From: an uncultured Bacteroidales bacterium
Lineage (GTDB): Bacteria; Bacteroidota; Bacteroidia; Bacteroidales; Muribaculaceae
Assembly: GCA_902787185.1 (NCBI GenBank)
Contig: CADAFP010000045.1
Span: 1-33,198 of the forward strand
DNA: 33,198 bases
Direction of reading: 5' to 3'
The notes below the pieces were generated by a model. The model saw only the letters and a program-made list of their open reading frames with translations, had not been told where the DNA came from and ran no database searches. Position numbers and translations under genes: made by a program. This document shows positions 6,263 through 24,013 of this stretch, piece by piece. Within the stretch, counting starts at the first letter, position 1, and every line of letters begins with the position of its first letter.

Positions 6263-6296
6263 TATTTAGATTGTTCATTGCTTATATAAATATTAA

Positions 6297-6326
6297 GTTG
6301 AGGGGCGCGGGATTGCGCCCCTCAAC
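6297..6326. terminator. Bidirectional terminator hairpin
   Basis: A perfect 12-bp stem (GTTGAGGGGCGC and its complement, 6-nt loop) stands between the plus-strand polyamine gene and the minus-strand mutT gene. T-rich sequence follows on the plus side. Confidence 0.85.
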
Positions 6327-6349
6327 TGATTTTATACCAGGAGATTACA

Positions 6350-11754: not shown

Positions 11755-12903
11755 TCACTTGTTCTTATTCAAGAAAGCGCAATATTCCTCCAATGACTTT
11801 TTCATCACCTCTTGCGGAATGAGTTTGCGTTGATATTCAGCAATCATCGTCGGGCTTAACGAGCGGTTTAGGGTGTATTCCACCATACTCCTGTCGGCCG
11901 AAGGACACAAAATGATGCCAATGCTCGGATTTTCATTTTCACGCTTCACATCACGGTCCAGCGCTTCGAGATACATATCCATCTTTCCCATAAACTCCGG
12001 CTGGAAATCAACGGCCTTTAACTCAATTGCCACCAAACATTGCAGGGCTCTATGGAAAAACAAGAGGTCAATGCGTTTAGTCGAGCCTCCTACCTGTACG
12101 CCAAATTCGCTTTCAATAAACAGGAAATCTTTACCAAGCTCAAGAATAAAGGCCTTCATGTGATCAAGCAGTCCCTTGTGCAAGTGGTGTTCATTATGCC
12201 TATTAGGCAGACTGAGAAAATCAACGACCGCTTTATCCTTGAGCATAAATTCCGACTGAGGATATTTAGCAAGCAGTTTTGGCGACATCATCTTCTCTTT
12301 GTCCATCAAGGATGAGAAGGTTTGGTTGATGATACAACGGCGCAACTCTTCGGTCTTCAATCCTTGATGACGAGCATATAGCATATAGAAGATGCGTTCA
12401 TCATCACTACGGCAACGGTTCATTATTTCAACATGATTGGTAAATGTCGTAACCTTTAAAATTGGCGGAATTATCTGGTCAACAGTTGGTTCTAATTGTG
12501 CAGTCGGCAACTGCACAATTGCATTATTTTTCGTTTGTGCAGTCGGTAACTGCACAAATTCACCAACATTTAATTGTAATTGTGATACTCTGTCAATAAA
12601 CATGGGTTGGCTATAGGTATCATAAAACTTGACCATGTTATACAGATTTCTTTTGCTGAACCCACGACGTTTTGGATTTTGCCGTTTCAGGTAGTCGGCC
12701 AAATCACCGACCACATTTGTGCCCCAGCGAGAGGATGTAAGCTGCAAGGAAATGTACTGACCGATTTCCCAATTCATCTGTAATGCCTCGGTATTGACCG
12801 CTATAACCGCAGCTGAGCGATGTCGTTCAATCAGTGAATTGACAAACTCAAATTGCTTCTCTAACTCTGACTGACTTGGAACTATAGTCACATTGTTTTC
12901 CAT
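11755..12903 (-). CDS. DUF1016/YhcG family PDDEXK nuclease
   Basis: A 382-residue protein. The N-terminal DUF1016_N helical domain (about residues 10-105) contains LQMNWEIGQYISLQ and RRGFSKRNLYNMVKFYDTY. The C-terminal PDDEXK nuclease domain (about 150-370) retains a plausible catalytic set: Glu265, Asp279 in KRIDLLFF, and Glu294-x-Lys296 in AIELKAV. The two are joined by a linker holding two copies of VQLPTAQ (residues 117-123 and 130-136), each encoded by a DNA palindrome. Family members are putative DNA nucleases, sometimes near restriction or mobile loci; none of those genes is adjacent here. The start follows a -7 box at 12924-12931, which rules out starts further upstream. Confidence 0.88.
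   Translation of the reverse strand: MENNVTIVPSQSELEKQFEFVNSLIERHRSAAVIAVNTEALQMNWEIGQYISLQLTSSRWGTNVVGDLADYLKRQNPKRRGFSKRNLYNMVKFYDTYSQPMFIDRVSQLQLNVGEFVQLPTAQTKNNAIVQLPTAQLEPTVDQIIPPILKVTTFTNHVEIMNRCRSDDERIFYMLYARHQGLKTEELRRCIINQTFSSLMDKEKMMSPKLLAKYPQSEFMLKDKAVVDFLSLPNRHNEHHLHKGLLDHMKAFILELGKDFLFIESEFGVQVGGSTKRIDLLFFHRALQCLVAIELKAVDFQPEFMGKMDMYLEALDRDVKRENENPSIGIILCPSADRSMVEYTLNRSLSPTMIAEYQRKLIPQEVMKKSLEEYCAFLNKNK
12494..12558. repeat. Two palindromes inside the DUF1016 linker coding region
   Basis: Copy 1: arms AATTGTGCAGT (12494-12504) and its complement (12510-12520), 5-nt loop. Copy 2: arms TTTGTGCAGT (12534-12543) and its complement (12549-12558), 5-nt loop. Both arms are perfect, and the copies lie 40 nt apart. 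On the coding strand each encodes VQLPTAQ. Confidence 0.9.
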
Positions 12904-12923
12904 ATTGTTCACTTTTGATATGG

Positions 12924-12931
12924 CAAAGATA
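12924..12931 (-). promoter_or_regulatory. -7 box for the DUF1016 gene
   Basis: Minus-strand TATCTTTG, 20 nt before the ATG at 12903; the leader would be only about 15 nt. Confidence 0.6.
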
Positions 12932-13317
12932 AATAAAAAGATGGTCATTTGGTATGAAATAGCACTTTTTTAGTTGAAACTGAGGTTTTTTCAATTAATT
13001 ACATCATTTTCAAGCGAATCTTTGCAACTCTTCAGCCAACTTGCATTACGCTAAGCAGCGCTGTCGCTAAGAGTAGTAATCTCATTACTCGTAAGAGGCT
13101 CGGAGACAGAAAAAACGGGATGCGGATGCCAACCTAAAAACTCTCACGACTTAGTGCCTTATCGTGAGAGAGAGTTGTGGGCATATTGACGGGATACTTA
13201 CCTATCTTTGGCTAAATGTGGTCAAAAAAATGAGATTTCGCCAAAGATAGAGCGGGGACTGCGACAGGATTTGTCGCAGCCCTCGCTGAGTTGATGGAGA
13301 AAAGCCCCGACAGGATT
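12932..13317. other. Gene-free region with several stable inverted repeats
   Basis: No coding frame is convincing in these 386 nt. Stems are dense: AGTAAT/ATTACT (13075-13089), CTCTCACGA/TCGTGAGAG (13141-13170, extended outward imperfectly), and a perfect 11-bp CTATCTTTGGC inverted repeat (13202-13212 and 13240-13250). The last one contains a TATCTTTG -7 motif on each strand, pointing inward toward each other. The stretch could hold a structured small RNA or only the 3' region of the dockerin gene. Confidence 0.5.
13259..13279 (-). terminator. Hairpin after the dockerin-protein gene
   Basis: A perfect 8-bp stem CTGCGACA/TGTCGCAG with a 5-nt loop, flanked by further G/C pairs, lies about 40 nt past the stop of the minus-strand gene at 13318. 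No long U-tract follows. Confidence 0.45.
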
Positions 13318-14907
13318 TTAATCGGGCATCGAGATGTCGCTCTTCAATGAGCCGTCGATGGCGAAAGGCATGGCGTTGAAGCCTTTGCTGAACGGCCAGC
13401 TGGTCGCCTCGCTCCAGCCGTCACCGTCCTTAATCACGCGAACGGTACCCACAGGGACAACATAGCCAGGGTCATAGCCCTTATCCAACATCACAAAGCC
13501 CTTGTACAAGTCGCGGATGCCCCCCTCGTCCATTGTACCTGAATAGATCTCAACTGTTTCAGTATTAACGCCACTGCTTGTTCCTGTAACCTTGAAGAAT
13601 ACAGTGAAGTTGCCGTTGCTACCCTGGATAATGCTTTCATACTGCGTTCCGTGGTGAGTCCCACCATCAATGATGTATTCAAAATCCACTGTATGGTTTT
13701 TAGTGCTTTGGTTCGTGAAGCGATAGTAATAGTCGCCGAAAACATGGCCTGGCGAGTAACCGTGGGAGGAAAACACCAATGAGTGGGGAGAGGACTTGTA
13801 CACTCCCTCGATGATGGGCGGAGTGTTGCCGTAGTAAATGGGCATGTATTGCTCAAAGATGTCCAAGTATTCCTGCGGGATGACTTCTTCAATTGGAGTA
13901 TTCGGCCATTTGCTGCCGTTTAACAGATAATCTATAAGTTCGACAACATCAGCAATGTTGATGTCGTTGTCGCGGTTAACGTCGGCATTGTCGGGCGGAA
14001 AAGAGTTTTCACCCATTAACAAGTAGTCAATCAAATCAGTCACATCGGCTATGGTCACCCTGCCATCATGGTTAACATCGCCAATCAATGTGTTGTTTGC
14101 ATAGACAGTGACAACGCATGAATCGGGCGCACTCACGCCGTCAGTGGGTATGACCGAAATGGTTGCCTTGCCCACGCTGATGCCTGTGATTTGAATAGTG
14201 TTATCCACCTTGCTAACTTGAGCCACAGCAGGATTACTTGTATTCACCTCATATTCAAGATCTGCGGGGAAAGAGGTCACATTGAGCAAAAGCTGTTCAC
14301 CTGGAGTGATGCGTGCGGCATGTTTGTCGAGAATGACACCATTTGTCGCAACGTGACACGTTCTGGTGAACCACACCTTGTGGTCACCGTTGTCCAGGAT
14401 CGTGCCACCACGGGGGTCAACTCCCGATGAACACTGGGTCTTGAAGATGATGTCGCCCCCCGTGAAGCCTTCCTCAATGACAAAGCTGAGCCAAAGCATC
14501 TCATCATACTCGCCACCTTCCCACTTCACGCTACCATAGGATACCCACGCTCCGCTTGAGTCCTGATAATAGCCTTGGTTACCAATTATCGCAATCACAT
14601 GATTCCAAGGCTCGTAACCACCATATAGTGTAACCACCATTGTTATTTGCTTGCCACGGGAGTTGTAATAGGTAAGGGTCATGTCTGCTCCAGCCTCTAT
14701 GCAAGTGGGTATCAGGTGCTCGGGGTAGGTAATCATAACGTCCCACCCGTTCAGGCGGCCAGAAAATGTAGCTTTGACGGGAAGCCTGAAAGTCTTGCCG
14801 ATGTCACTCTGACTGACCATAAAATCATTCAAGTAAAAGGCGCACTCGGCGACAGCTGATGCCGCACATAGCATCAGCAATGCCGCTAAAAAGGTTAATC
14901 TTTTCAT
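13318..14907 (-). CDS. Secreted cohesin-like / Big2 / dockerin multidomain protein
   Basis: A 529-residue exported protein with a signal peptide (residues 1-20, ending ASAVA). Residues about 21-185 look like a cohesin-type beta-sandwich (RLPVKATFSGRLNGWDVMITYP and a later LSFVIEEGFTGGDIIF). Residues about 187-270 look like a bacterial Ig-like Big2 domain (VNTSNPAVAQVSKVDN, GISVGKATISV). A type I dockerin pair follows at about 275-330: DVNHDGRVTIAD and DVNRDNDINIAD, each followed by a LIDYLL helix. Both loops keep most calcium-binding D/N positions. Unusually, the dockerin is internal: about 200 residues of unrecognised domain follow (from YLDIFEQYMPIYYGNTPPII). The ATG at 14907 is chosen because it starts the signal peptide. 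Confidence 0.82.
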   Translation of the reverse strand: MKRLTFLAALLMLCAASAVAECAFYLNDFMVSQSDIGKTFRLPVKATFSGRLNGWDVMITYPEHLIPTCIEAGADMTLTYYNSRGKQITMVVTLYGGYEPWNHVIAIIGNQGYYQDSSGAWVSYGSVKWEGGEYDEMLWLSFVIEEGFTGGDIIFKTQCSSGVDPRGGTILDNGDHKVWFTRTCHVATNGVILDKHAARITPGEQLLLNVTSFPADLEYEVNTSNPAVAQVSKVDNTIQITGISVGKATISVIPTDGVSAPDSCVVTVYANNTLIGDVNHDGRVTIADVTDLIDYLLMGENSFPPDNADVNRDNDINIADVVELIDYLLNGSKWPNTPIEEVIPQEYLDIFEQYMPIYYGNTPPIIEGVYKSSPHSLVFSSHGYSPGHVFGDYYYRFTNQSTKNHTVDFEYIIDGGTHHGTQYESIIQGSNGNFTVFFKVTGTSSGVNTETVEIYSGTMDEGGIRDLYKGFVMLDKGYDPGYVVPVGTVRVIKDGDGWSEATSWPFSKGFNAMPFAIDGSLKSDISMPD

Positions 14908-14979
14908 TGTTAATCGGTTATTAGAGGTTGCGTCGCTCCAGTCCCTTGGCAACAACATTAAACACAAAGAAGCGAGGAC

Positions 14980-15135
14980 TGCTTATGCCACGCTTCGCTG
15001 ATTGACGGTCCTGAGAAACCTTGAACGCAGAAGGGGATAATGAGTGCAGTCCACGCCTATAGCGTGGAAACCGCCGTGCCTTCCCTTGCGTTCTAAATGA
15101 AAATTTCTCAGGTTTTCAATCAGCAAGAATAAGCA
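14980..15135. repeat. ~156-bp imperfect inverted repeat, MITE-like or structured RNA
   Basis: The two halves pair in several blocks: GCTTAT, GCTGATTGA (14997-15005 with 15116-15124), CCTGAGAAA, GAACGCA, and a central CCACGC/GCGTGG stem with a 5-nt loop near 15051-15066. The gaps between blocks differ, as in an ageing palindromic element. An open frame of 73 residues crosses it but looks like a by-product of the palindrome. Confidence 0.6.
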
Positions 15136-15254
15136 TAACGCTCCATGAATCAAAATGTATAGACTACCGCACGCCCAGACGAACGAACCGCAGCCAATGT
15201 GCAAAATTAATCAATACCACCCAATCAAGCAACCTTTCAGCGTTTTTTCTCCAT

Positions 15255-15353
15255 AAACTGGAAAAAGTGTAGTTTTCAAAGGGTAAAAAAACGGAAAAAG
15301 TGTAATTTTCGATGGGTCAAAAACTGGAAAAAGTGTAATTTTGTTCCCTTAAA
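15255..15353 (+). repeat. Three 33-bp direct repeats ending in a promoter
   Basis: Units begin at 15255, 15288 and 15321, each with (A)AC(T)GGAAAAAGTGTA then a GTTTT or ATTTT run. Each has a small GAAAA/TTTTC-type symmetry. The third unit carries TAATTTTG (15336-15343), a perfect -7 box; units 1 and 2 have TAGTTTTC and TAATTTTC at the same place. A 33-bp period is close to three helical turns, fitting operator sites on one DNA face. Confidence 0.8.
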
Positions 15354-16229
15354 ATGTTGAGTGACATGGAGGGATATAGCAGGACATTGTATGTGAGCGA
15401 CTTGGACGGGACGTTGCTGGGTGACGACTCGCGATTGTCACGCGGCACGATTGACACACTCAACCGTATCATTGGGGAATTGGGTGGTCTGTTCACTGTA
15501 GCCACGGCACGCACGCCGGCCACGGTGGTGCCGCTGATGCAAGAAGTTCATGCCACGTTGCCGTATATCGTCATCGACGGCTCGGCGATGTGGAACCCTG
15601 TCACAGGTTGCTATGAGCACACGCGCGGCATCGCCCCCGAGACGGTGTATGCCGTTGCCGAAGTGTTTGACCGCCATGGGGCGCGCCCCTTCATCTACCG
15701 ACGTCATGGCGACAGCATGTTGCATGCCCACCACTATGGACCCATGTCGGCACAAGAGGAGCGTTTTGTCGCATCGCGCCAGCAGCTACCCCTCAAGCGG
15801 TTCTTCATCGACGACCGCGGTTACCTCCACAGCGAGGACGAGGCGCTGCTCATCTTCGCTATAAGCAAATATGCCGTGCTCAAGGAGATAGCCGAGGATC
15901 TGAGGGCTACCGTACCCACTTGTGCAGTCATAGTCTATCACGACAACTTCGACCCCAGCGAGGGGTACCTGGAAATACTCACTGCCGGCACGAGCAAGGC
16001 GGGCGCCATCCGCAAGCTGGCGCAGCAGGTGGGTGCCGAACGGGTGGTGGTCTTTGGCGACAACCGCAATGACATCGCGATGATGCAGGTTGCCGACCAC
16101 AGCATTGCCGTGGGCAACGCCTTCGCCGAGGTGCAAGCCGCCGCCAACGAGGTCATCGGCCCCAATACCGCCGACAGTGTCGCCCGCTGGATTGAGGCCG
16201 ACCTGCAATCCCACATGACCCCACGCTAA
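15354..16229 (+). CDS. Cof-type HAD-IIB hydrolase
   Basis: A 291-residue cytoplasmic HAD phosphatase of the Cof/YidA type, which dephosphorylates sugar phosphates or cofactors. Motif I is DLDGT (nucleophile Asp16, acid Asp18), motif II the Thr in VATARTP, motif III Lys215 (TSKAGAIRKL) and motif IV GDNRNDIAMM (235-244). The large cap domain between about residues 80 and 195 is the C2B type. The -7 box at 15336-15343 would start transcription near 15350, so the ATG at 15366 (MEGYSRTLYVSDLDGT) may be used rather than 15354. The final residues and stop (HMTPR, TAA) are supplied by a repeated intergenic sequence that begins inside the gene. Confidence 0.88.
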   Translation: MLSDMEGYSRTLYVSDLDGTLLGDDSRLSRGTIDTLNRIIGELGGLFTVATARTPATVVPLMQEVHATLPYIVIDGSAMWNPVTGCYEHTRGIAPETVYAVAEVFDRHGARPFIYRRHGDSMLHAHHYGPMSAQEERFVASRQQLPLKRFFIDDRGYLHSEDEALLIFAISKYAVLKEIAEDLRATVPTCAVIVYHDNFDPSEGYLEILTAGTSKAGAIRKLAQQVGAERVVVFGDNRNDIAMMQVADHSIAVGNAFAEVQAAANEVIGPNTADSVARWIEADLQSHMTPR

Positions 16230-16309
16230 GACGCGAAGGCGCTAAGACTTATAACAGGCTGCAGCACACTTGACCCCACGCTAAGACGCAAAGGCGCTAA
16301 GATTTAGTT
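16216..16309 (+). repeat. Two copies of a 55-bp repeat (ACGCTAAG family)
   Basis: TGACCCCACGCTAAGACGC starts at 16216 and again at 16271, each followed by GAAGGCGCTAAG or AAAGGCGCTAAG. The same core heads the three 132-bp units at 19517-19897. Copy 1 overlaps the HAD stop codon. Confidence 0.8.
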
Positions 16310-16330
16310 TTATATGGCATCCGCATTCAA

Positions 16331-16392
16331 ACTATTCACTGTTAACTTTTAACTGTTAACTTTATAACTGTTCACTTTTCACTGTTAACTTT
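16331..16392. repeat. Degenerate 7-bp tandem repeat array B
   Basis: TTCACTG, TTAACTT, TTAACTG and TTCACTT units follow one another, the complement of the units in array A, just upstream of the promoter of the broken DUF1016 gene. Confidence 0.75.
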
Positions 16393-16413
16393 TTTAAGTT
16401 GCTGGCGCATCAA

Positions 16414-16445
16414 TTTGTCCAATTCACGGGAATTCCTTAATTTTG
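16414..16445 (+). promoter_or_regulatory. Full Bacteroidetes promoter before the DUF1016 pseudogene and kinase operon
   Basis: TTTG (16414-16417) and TAATTTTG (16438-16445) with 20 nt between them. Transcription should start near 16452, which excludes the TTG at 16450 and supports the ATG at 16477. Confidence 0.72.
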
Positions 16446-16476
16446 CCACTTGTTAACGTCAAGCGACCTTACCTGT

Positions 16477-17422
16477 ATGGCCAACCTCAAACAAAATCAA
16501 CATACAGACCGTCAAGTCCTGGAGGCTGTCAAGGCCATCAAGACGGCTATTCTTCAGGGCCAATACGAGGCTGCAAAGGACGTCAACCGCGTGCAATTGG
16601 CGTTGTACTTTGCCGTTGGCCGCTTTTTATCCAAGAACACCCGTCAAGGAGTTTGGGGCCTGGGAGCAATCGATGCCATCAGCCAACAGTTGCGCAAGGA
16701 ATTGCCTGGACTCCGAGGGTTTTCAGCTTCCAATTTAAAGAATATGCGTCTGTTCTATGAAGAATGGATGAATCTTAATGCCCATGCGATAACAAGAAAC
16801 ATCAATTCGCCAATCGTGATTGGCGAATTACAAAACGATAACAATCAGTTAATTACAGAATCGCCAATCGCAACTGACGAAAATACGACATCTGCAGATG
16901 ATAATGTTATCGACCTCAATAATTCTTTACAGATACCGTTAACGGCCGATTTTCCTATCGAGGATTTTTTTAAAGTGCCTTTTACGCATCATATTAGAAT
17001 TCTTGAAAGAGAAAAAGAACGTGAAGCACGCTACTATTACATTCATCGCACTGCCGAAGAGCATCTTTCGGCCAACGAATTGATACGATTAATCCAAGAG
17101 GACTCGTTTCATCAACAGTCGCTGATTCCCAATAACTTTTCCCATACAATACCCAATGCCGCTTCGGCCCGTAAAGCGGTGATGATGTTTAAGGACAATT
17201 ATCTGCTCAATTTCATTAACGTGGAAGAAATCGGAGAACGGGAAAGCATCGATGTTGACGAACGGGTAGTGGAACAGCAAATCATTGAGAACATTAAGAA
17301 ATTTATCATGACTTTTGGCAATGATTTCGCTTTTATTGGCAACCAATACCACGACCAAGGATATGCCCGACCAATACCGCAACGCTTTACCTGACATTGA
17401 CGAACTGAAACAATTACTTTAA
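16477..17422 (+). pseudogene. DUF1016/YhcG gene with deleted nuclease core
   Basis: The frame encodes 305 residues to a stop at 17394. The N-terminal domain is intact (VNRVQLALYFAVGRFLSKN, GLRGFSASNLKNMRLFYEEW), as is the start of the C-terminal domain (FFKVPFTHHIRILEREKERE). It breaks after NDFAFIGNQYH, just before the strands that bear the catalytic D and ExK in the other copy. In the +1 frame, 17348-17419 encodes 24 residues ending in ALPDIDELKQLL and then TAA, a typical C-terminus of this family. So an internal deletion, roughly 80-95 codons by comparison with the copy at 11755-12903, removed the active site and shifted the frame. The truncated N-terminal product could still be made and might bind DNA or interfere with a full-length homologue. 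Confidence 0.85.
16804..16829. repeat. Palindrome in the linker of the DUF1016 pseudogene
   Basis: AATTCGCCAATC (16804-16815), GT, then its perfect complement (16818-16829): 12-bp arms. A decayed second copy starts near 16861 (TCGCCAATCG pairing partly with CAACTGACGA). They encode SPIVIGE and SPIATDE. The position matches the palindromes of the other DUF1016 gene, but the sequence is unrelated. Confidence 0.88.
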
Positions 17423-23985: not shown

Positions 23986-24013
23986 AAATACTTTCCTGTG
24001 CGGGAAAGTATTT
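23986..24013. promoter_or_regulatory. Operator palindrome of the higBA-like locus
   Basis: A perfect 11-bp inverted repeat: AAATACTTTCC (23986-23996), 6-nt spacer, then its complement (24003-24013). It abuts the toxin -7 box (24015-24022) and covers the probable -33 regions of both divergent promoters. A Xre-type antitoxin encoded 376 nt downstream is the obvious candidate repressor. Confidence 0.8.

Follow-up and report, generated by a model that had tools for sequence, protein, structure and literature searches.

Several described systems place a DNA site in or near the gene of the protein that reads it. Autogenous and intragenic operators include lac O2 and O3 and the sites of phage CI and of the controller proteins of restriction-modification (R-M) systems. 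ParB, a helix-turn-helix (HTH) protein, reads the palindromic site parS near its own gene, and a homing endonuclease usually cuts alleles without its gene, the opposite of a site inside the gene itself. Palindromes also occur as Rickettsia palindromic elements (RPE; Ogata 2000, 2002, as cited in PMC4316617), which are described there as about 100-150 nt long and present in intergenic regions, RNAs and many genes. The window analyzed here, a 33,198-nt stretch of an uncultured Bacteroidales bacterium (Muribaculaceae; assembly GCA_902787185.1, contig CADAFP010000045.1), holds two genes of the DUF1016/YhcG nucleases (PF17761, PF06250, COG4804; PADLOC PDC-S02), a full member (gene A) and a truncated one (gene B), both with palindromes inside the reading frame. 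We find that a dyad at this place recurs across the family and that its bases covary with residues of predicted DNA-reading helices, and we propose that the protein binds the site encoded within its own gene.

Results

Two window genes carry in-frame palindromes

The genes, palindromes and helices are listed below; helix coordinates were counted by hand, those of gene A from its translation.

11755..12903, minus strand: gene A, a DUF1016_N plus YhcG_C (PD-(D/E)XK) protein of 382 aa (Pfam PF17761, E 4.7e-25; PF06250, E 6.8e-50)
12613..12654, minus strand: predicted recognition helix 1 of gene A, residues 84-97 (KRNLYNM..., after GFS; AlphaFold model)
12534..12558, minus strand: palindrome A1, arm 10, loop 5, encoding FVQLPTAQT (inverted-repeat search)
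12494..12520, minus strand: palindrome A2, arm 11, loop 5, encoding AIVQLPTAQL (inverted-repeat search)
12328..12354, minus strand: predicted recognition helix 2 of gene A, residues 184-192, after GLK (AlphaFold model)
16477..17394, plus strand: gene B, DUF1016_N present, nuclease domain shortened by an early stop (PF17761, E 1.2e-23)
16726..16767, plus strand: putative recognition helix 1 of gene B (ASNLKNM..., after GFS; homology to gene A, alignment columns)
16804..16829, plus strand: palindrome B1, arm 12, loop 2, encoding NSPIVIGEL (inverted-repeat search)
16861..16881, plus strand: decayed copy B2, encoding SPIATDE (54 nt beyond B1 and 81% identical to it over 21 nt)

PF17761 (DUF1016_N) scored above cut-off in both genes. 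The YhcG_C match covers 150 of 157 positions in gene A and only positions 3-51 in gene B, that is 49/157 of the nuclease domain; the PADLOC model PDC-S02 matches gene A with E 1.1e-107 and the other window gene with E 3.2e-64. The palindromes had been reported in an earlier note made from the sequence alone, and they are confirmed at these coordinates: both inverted repeats of gene A are perfect, with axes 39 nt apart, gene B has one perfect palindrome and its decayed second copy, and the frame runs through all of them (VQLPTAQ in A1 and again in A2, SPIVIGE in B1, SPIATDE in B2). Gene B and its palindromes were placed correctly, but the gene ends at 17394 and not at 17422, since two stops lie inside the longer stretch. 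The placement in an interdomain linker does not hold: the palindromes occupy an insertion point within DUF1016_N, which the Pfam match of gene A spans, and not the space between two Pfam domains.

A1, A2 and B1 are the only inverted repeats in the 33-kb window with an arm of at least 10 and a loop of at most 5; 30 draws from an order-1 Markov model yield a mean of 0.37 such repeats and never more than 2. The genome of the window (3.22 Mb in 102 contigs, about 81% complete) was searched for both exact patterns. TTGTGCAGTN5ACTGCACAA matches the two gene A copies only and ATTCGCCAATN4ATTGGCGAAT matches gene B only, so that neither palindrome has the many dispersed copies typical of RPE or repetitive extragenic palindromic (REP) elements. 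The same genome holds about 10 DUF1016_N genes, one of them below cut-off, and six of the eight outside the window have an inverted repeat with an arm of at least 8 at the same place, each different in sequence; the remaining two (L003 and L006) have no inverted repeat of that arm length there. When eight genomes were searched for a gene's own site, five gave a match, which by coordinates was confined to the gene in four; the fifth has one extra copy about 200 bp before the matched gene.

The dyad is a family trait

The pooled set holds 293 distinct DUF1016/YhcG genes (297 before removal of duplicates; close relatives remain in the counts). Their sources are viral contigs, two archaea and a wide range of bacterial phyla, and the same place in them tends to hold a dyad of about 27 bp. 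More specifically, 61 genomes of the same genus were searched and 55 had a match; from the matches listed, 29 loci and 94 regions were taken, and 6 stretches from the genome of the window were added. Their 150 profile matches gave 141 with both anchors and enough length and 128 distinct genes. The viral set comprises 57 distinct genes from 63 (70 loci), the phylum set all 31 of 31, and the named-genome set 81 distinct genes from 82, drawn from the best 80 of at least 579 matches. Each gene was compared with codon-shuffled versions of itself in which protein and codon usage are preserved. An arm of at least 10 was found in 68/128 genus genes (shuffle mean 1.45), an arm of at least 9 in 39/57 viral genes (shuffles 0.4) and 63/81 named-genome genes (shuffles 0.65), and an arm of at least 8 in 21/31 phylum genes (shuffles 0.45). 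Elsewhere in the same genus genes, arm 10 was reached in 0.24% of 2872 windows.

The earlier note had named this comparison of homologues with shuffled controls as the one that could overturn it, and its observation stands. Its further argument, that different sequences at the same position speak against simple inheritance, fails, because the dyad is positionally fixed family-wide and its arms diversify together with the recognition helices. Among genes at loci with a named phylum, arms of at least 8 occur in 15 of 17 phyla (34/40 genes in Pseudomonadota), both archaeal genes included; Chlamydiota and Deinococcota, with one gene each, have shorter arms only. The key nuclease residues are intact in 278/293 genes, and 13 of the 15 genes without a full nuclease domain in frame still have arms of at least 8. 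DUF1016 genes occur in phage records, plasmids and viral contigs. Neighbouring pairs were seen at G000:C12:50803-53103, G034:C2:105419-107179, L214, L290 and L315, and in the last three the two genes carry different palindromes.

The site is fixed in position and probably acts as double-stranded DNA

In short-linker genes, which have the dyad without any insertion, its place can be given to the nucleotide. The axis lies 17.5 nt (157 genes) or 18 nt (23 genes) before the anchor codon, nearly always the Trp of an LxWxH motif, in 180 of the 182 genes with a core arm of at least 6, and elsewhere in two. At least 7 of 11 positions pair in every one of the 197 short-linker genes (shuffles 29%), and at least 9 do so in 178 of them (shuffles 3%); for the pairing and mismatch counts the better of two axes was taken, a mild bias that the shuffles share in the 197-gene test. 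Pairing extends 13 bp from the axis and then declines. Positions 10-13 are mostly AATT and positions 2-9 form a hypervariable core, in which several positions show each of the four Watson-Crick pair types (at position 3: CG 91, GC 28, AT 23, TA 7). Longer linkers hold up to three perfect copies of the palindrome.

An RNA stem should favour G.U over A.C mismatches and a DNA dyad should not. Across positions 2-12 on the coding strand of 163 distinct sites we counted 24 G.U and 43 A.C, which points to a site that acts as double-stranded DNA and not as RNA. A scan of the window against Rfam at the gathering threshold gave no match.

Site bases covary with residues of predicted recognition helices

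Mutual information was calculated between core bases and protein columns outside the segment that the site encodes (174 genes, effective number 93). The strongest columns are 97, 100 and 101, 125, and 153 and 154, with a weaker tail elsewhere, and the codons of the linked residues lie some 50-65 nt before the axis and some 105 nt after it. Column 97 couples to position 7 with a z of 10.2: in short-linker genes Arg97 goes with G in 98/99 symmetric sites, and Ser, Thr, Ala, Lys or Gln with C or T, with two exceptions. In the same genes Lys100 goes with G at position 9 (55/55 symmetric sites); at column 101, Asn (14/14) and Tyr (89/92) go with A at position 5 and Arg with C or T (24/24); Arg154 goes with C at position 2 (66/66) and Asn154 with A (36/47); and position 3 is A or T where column 153 holds Val (25/27). 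Arg to G and Asn to A are classical HTH contacts. In gene A, Arg85 and Asn89 of helix 1 fall in columns 97 and 101, and Thr and Glu of helix 2 in columns 153-154. The window genes follow the column-97 rule, gene A with Arg97 and G at position 7 and gene B with Ser97 and C.

Shared ancestry was controlled for with a tree from which the recognition columns had been left out. It has 28 changes of Arg97 and 30 of the position-7 G; among 14 independent supported pairs, 12.7 were concordant and 1.0 opposed (median p 0.0018). The control columns listed were even (column 300: 1.4 vs 1.5) or had few pairs.

Long-linker genes, whose sites lie off the structural position, served as a test set (121 palindromes of 82 genes). 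The column-97 rule was right for 81 of 92 sites with the axis on a base (Arg to G in 46/48), compared with a mean of 46 and a maximum of 67 in 1000 shuffles. Other rules that held were Asn101 to A (20/20), Arg101 to C or T (11/12), Val153 to A or T (17/17) and Arg154 to C (25/29). Protein-protein contact, another conceivable cause of the coupling between column 97 and position 7, is weakened as an explanation because these palindromes, at varying places, mostly obey the rule. The gene A palindromes fall partly in residues 122-136, where the AlphaFold confidence score (pLDDT) is below 50.

The coupled columns correspond to the first residues of two helices in an AlphaFold model of a canonical family member (pLDDT 82.8, predicted template-modelling score 0.62; model made without DNA), one spanning residues 85-97 and preceded by a GFS turn, the other spanning residues 143-151 and preceded by a GWS turn. 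In this model two HTH-like units appear to flank the palindrome-encoded segment. The four significant structure matches of a relative's model in the Protein Data Bank (PDB) are PD-(D/E)XK repair endonucleases of the NucS/EndoMS type.

Since the arms change in step with the putative DNA-reading residues, each protein very probably recognizes the site in its own gene. That the protein reads this dyad, and that site and reader evolve together, we hold with high confidence. The earlier note had offered a hairpin recognized by the nuclease itself as one possible role; the covariation bears out recognition by the gene's own protein, and the mismatch counts do not bear out hairpins as such.

Further copies of the site

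The loci of 197 short-linker genes (1.03 Mb) were scanned with each gene's own half-sites, which revealed 29 further sites compared with 2 in mismatched controls; the 29 are not independent events, some being common to related genes. Some lie 108-111 or 255 nt upstream inside an open frame. In L144, L201 and L224 a site is centred 23-28 nt before the ATG and the frame opens only around or after it; L198 and L203 have a second in-frame ATG with a site 26 and 32 nt ahead of it, and the site is upstream only if that ATG is the start; and in L288 and L312 a second site falls in the open frame near the likely N-terminus. Three to five genes thus have a site just before the ATG. In a ranked test on 66 site clusters, the region before the start was enriched overall (Kolmogorov-Smirnov p 0.0008).

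Sites of the same type were also sought beyond these loci. The exact pattern of gene A had no match in IMG/VR. A canonical pattern, of a type that spans only part of the site variety, gave 7 matches in viral contigs: 1 in a DUF1016 gene, 5 in a DNA-polymerase-like gene and 1 near the end of an open reading frame (ORF). The polymerase-like gene carries a near-canonical site in L323, L325, L326, L328 and L329, apparently one phage family, where it encodes HDEILVESPE.IVQQVAAQLEKS, a peptide motif shared with DUF1016, either by chance or as a natural target. A looser pattern of this type found 23 sites in 21 of 395 Bacteroidota genomes. Among the 21 loci read, 7 lie in profile-found DUF1016 genes. 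A short ORF accounts for 3 more and other ORFs for the remaining 11, several of these reading like signal peptides. The short ORF (L342:1342-1596 on the minus strand, L341, L339) has the form MKWFF[RK].LELM..W.RF...[IF]VQQAAAQ...IP.VNNFGI with one to four palindromes, and reads like a DUF1016 remnant in which recognition helix 1 and the sites are retained. In L342, the one locus whose neighbours were examined, the genes on either side of it resemble hsdM and hsdS.

Escherichia coli yhcG

The linker of K-12 yhcG holds three palindromes. One is perfect (arm 15, at +378..+410); the others, at about +303 and +341, are imperfect by reading. E21 has two palindromes in its linker and H19 one. A perfect matching palindrome lies just past the K-12 stop codon (L351:6971-6995) and also in E21, H19 and ECCWS199. 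K-12 and E21 yhcG are 95-100% identical over nt 1-240 and 541-1080 and 87-90% over nt 421-540, and only 58-67% over nt 241-420, the block of recognition helix 1 and the linker palindromes. As the low identity is confined to that block, reader and address appear to have been exchanged together. Of 5426 genomes, 3784 have a match to the K-12 cassette and 468 to the E21 cassette.

A match was obtained in 4417 E. coli genomes, and broken alleles were seen as well (L352:3001-3406, L353:3001-3744). Among the strains listed, the breakpoint is at nt 406 in BL21 and at least 5 others and at nt 385 in two, where it lies beside IS1 in ECCWS199. Both breakpoints fall within the arm-15 palindrome, which may therefore be an insertion-sequence hot spot. 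According to one published screen, deletion of yhcG is synthetic-lethal with weak dnaB, dnaN and parE alleles and YhcG associates with Hsd and Mcr proteins (PMC2672614); these results leave the site itself outside their scope.

Other repeats in the window

The sole other perfect inverted repeats in the window with an arm of at least 9 and a loop of at most 9, at 6296-6327 and 23986-24013, are perhaps terminators. Three 33-nt head-to-tail repeats (AAACTGGAAAAAGTGTA...) lie in intergenic DNA at 15255-15353, and two 40-nt copies of CA[CT][AT]TGACCCCACGCTAAGACGC.AAGGCGCTAAGA at 16212-16306, with a diverged third at 13037-13076.

Discussion

The computation directly yields the dyad, its fixed position, its DNA-level character and its covariation with the predicted starts of the recognition helices. 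Our best reading, to which we give a probability of about two in three, is that the protein binds the dyad of its own gene as a dimer, most likely for autogenous control. The N-terminal domain would consist of two tandem HTH-like units, and a dimer would read about 27 bp within its own coding sequence, at the segment encoded between the two units. Each lineage or paralogue would have its own half-site (core positions 2-9, mostly with an outer AATT at 10-13), which would suit the recognition helices of its protein. The bound protein, and of this step we are less sure, would block transcription through its gene, in some genes jointly with a second site near the start codon. Autogenous control would fit sites that lie within and close to the gene, the absence of further copies from the genomes checked, the start-proximal copies in some genes and the need to restrain a nuclease. 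An operator inside the frame would travel with a gene found in phage records, plasmids and viral contigs, so that the gene would bring its own operator wherever it is transferred.

Several observations weigh against this reading. On the tree, the Arg101 link is weak (5.5 to 0 of 7 pairs, median p 0.03, range 0.03-0.125) and the Arg154 and Lys100 links are not significant (2.3 to 0 of 4 pairs and 2.3 to 0 of 6). In long-linker genes 11 of the 92 sites violate the column-97 rule, Lys100 fails to predict G (15/30, and 2/15 with the axis between bases), and Tyr101 goes with A in 33/43 and with C in 10/43; in sites with the axis between bases Arg97 occurs with C twice and with G twice. Gene B itself, with Lys100 and C at position 9, breaks the Lys100 rule, and the E. 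coli sites, by reading, do not cleanly obey column 97. Given these exceptions the recognition code is partial. The N-terminal half has no PDB match by sequence and none significant by structure (judged from descriptions), so the HTH assignment draws on the AlphaFold model and the covariation. Second sites at 16 or more of 22 matches number 25 in 274 genes (5.8 in controls), and most genes have none. Only 6 individual extremes lie before the start (1.7 expected), 6 lie just inside the gene, and 9 lie just downstream of the site, these partly linker copies. As few genes are individually extreme and neighbouring stretches behave alike, start-proximal sites occur in a minority and the intragenic site is the only one found in most genes; a promoter operator in every gene is supported neither by the second-site counts nor by the ranked test. 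Finally, a pure operator would not need so strict a codon position.

The nuclease may instead be addressed to its own gene: the site would be where it cuts or loads, and would serve to cut or exclude other DNA with the same gene, such as competing mobile elements, or to drive conversion between copies, and the resident copy would be spared by regulation. The near-universal nuclease residues, the occurrence of the genes in phage records, plasmids and viral contigs, the standing of the family as defence candidate PDC-S02 and the confinement of the site to its gene (in the window's genome and in four of the five matched genomes) are in keeping with this. The resident gene, however, would be cut as well, and no modifying partner is known; the genes have no obvious conserved neighbours, apart from one association with a type I R-M system, in the portion of the source seen (PMC1189080). 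Arms persist in most genes without a full nuclease domain, although recent loss, contig ends and assembly frameshifts would look alike, and in the looser scan of the 395 genomes 14 of 21 loci lie outside DUF1016 genes, three of them probable remnants. We consider such targeting unlikely. A somewhat better chance, though still a doubtful one, goes to the general form of the idea, in which address and reader, encoded in one stretch of the gene, make up a portable, swappable cassette for kin or self recognition between mobile elements and control of the resident gene is a by-product. Through its nuclease each allele would then recognize the DNA on which that allele is carried.

A recombination site, at which dyads allow linker copies and recognition helix to be exchanged or multiplied as a cassette, was also among the roles proposed in the earlier note. 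The K-12/E21 block at nt 241-420 between its more similar flanks, the palindrome numbers of 3, 2 and 1 and the spread of both cassettes among E. coli genomes lend it limited support. Homologous exchange under diversifying selection accounts for the block, no recombinase tied to the site was noticed, and a passive crossover site is not expected to covary with recognition helices; we regard this role as improbable.

That the arms form an mRNA hairpin for control or processing at the RNA level is very unlikely. They would fold stably in RNA and their place in the transcript is fixed, yet G.U pairs show no excess and Rfam gave no match in the window; second copies near the start codon are indecisive here because they could be transcribed too. 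Still less credible is mutational self-correction, in which template switching between the arms would keep them matched without selection: matched arms of arbitrary sequence are what it predicts, and it leaves unexplained both the link to residues of two recognition helices and the further copies of the same site in the locus. Mobile RPE- or REP-like elements inserted repeatedly at one tolerant place, the earlier note's remaining suggestion, would produce in-frame palindromes in up to three perfect copies per linker, and can be set aside for the window palindromes, each unique in its genome and without dispersed copies, and almost certainly in general, given that paralogues in one genome differ in sequence and short-linker genes have the dyad without an insertion.

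Autogenous control through a self-encoded site would be a function that can be put to the test for these nucleases, which occur across bacteria and in archaea and include the product of E. coli yhcG; the literature found, seen in part, names no molecular function for it. The proteins of the family and their matched sites also form a natural collection of pairs for reading an HTH recognition code. Unusually, one DNA stretch is apparently selected both as protein code and as the binding site of that protein. Among the matches listed in the literature searched, covered by title and abstract and with subscription journals largely outside, we found no report of a palindrome in the gene of, or a DNA site for, a DUF1016/YhcG protein, and no precedent for a family-wide self-encoded arrangement, even if it serves plain autorepression. 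In that case it would be a new variant of the intragenic operator.

Comparison with known systems

Like Rickettsia palindromic elements, the DUF1016 palindromes are translated in frame, but the dyad is about 27 bp long and belongs to one gene family, and the window palindromes have no dispersed copies. ParB-parS differs in that the DUF1016 site lies inside the gene and a nuclease domain is present (partition genes were considered within the window only). The likeness to autogenous operators lies in a predicted dimeric HTH protein, a dyad in or near its own gene and several sites in some genes. Unlike those operators, the DUF1016 site lies inside the coding sequence of the DNA-binding domain itself, where its codon position is the same throughout the 197 short-linker genes examined, and it diversifies with the protein.

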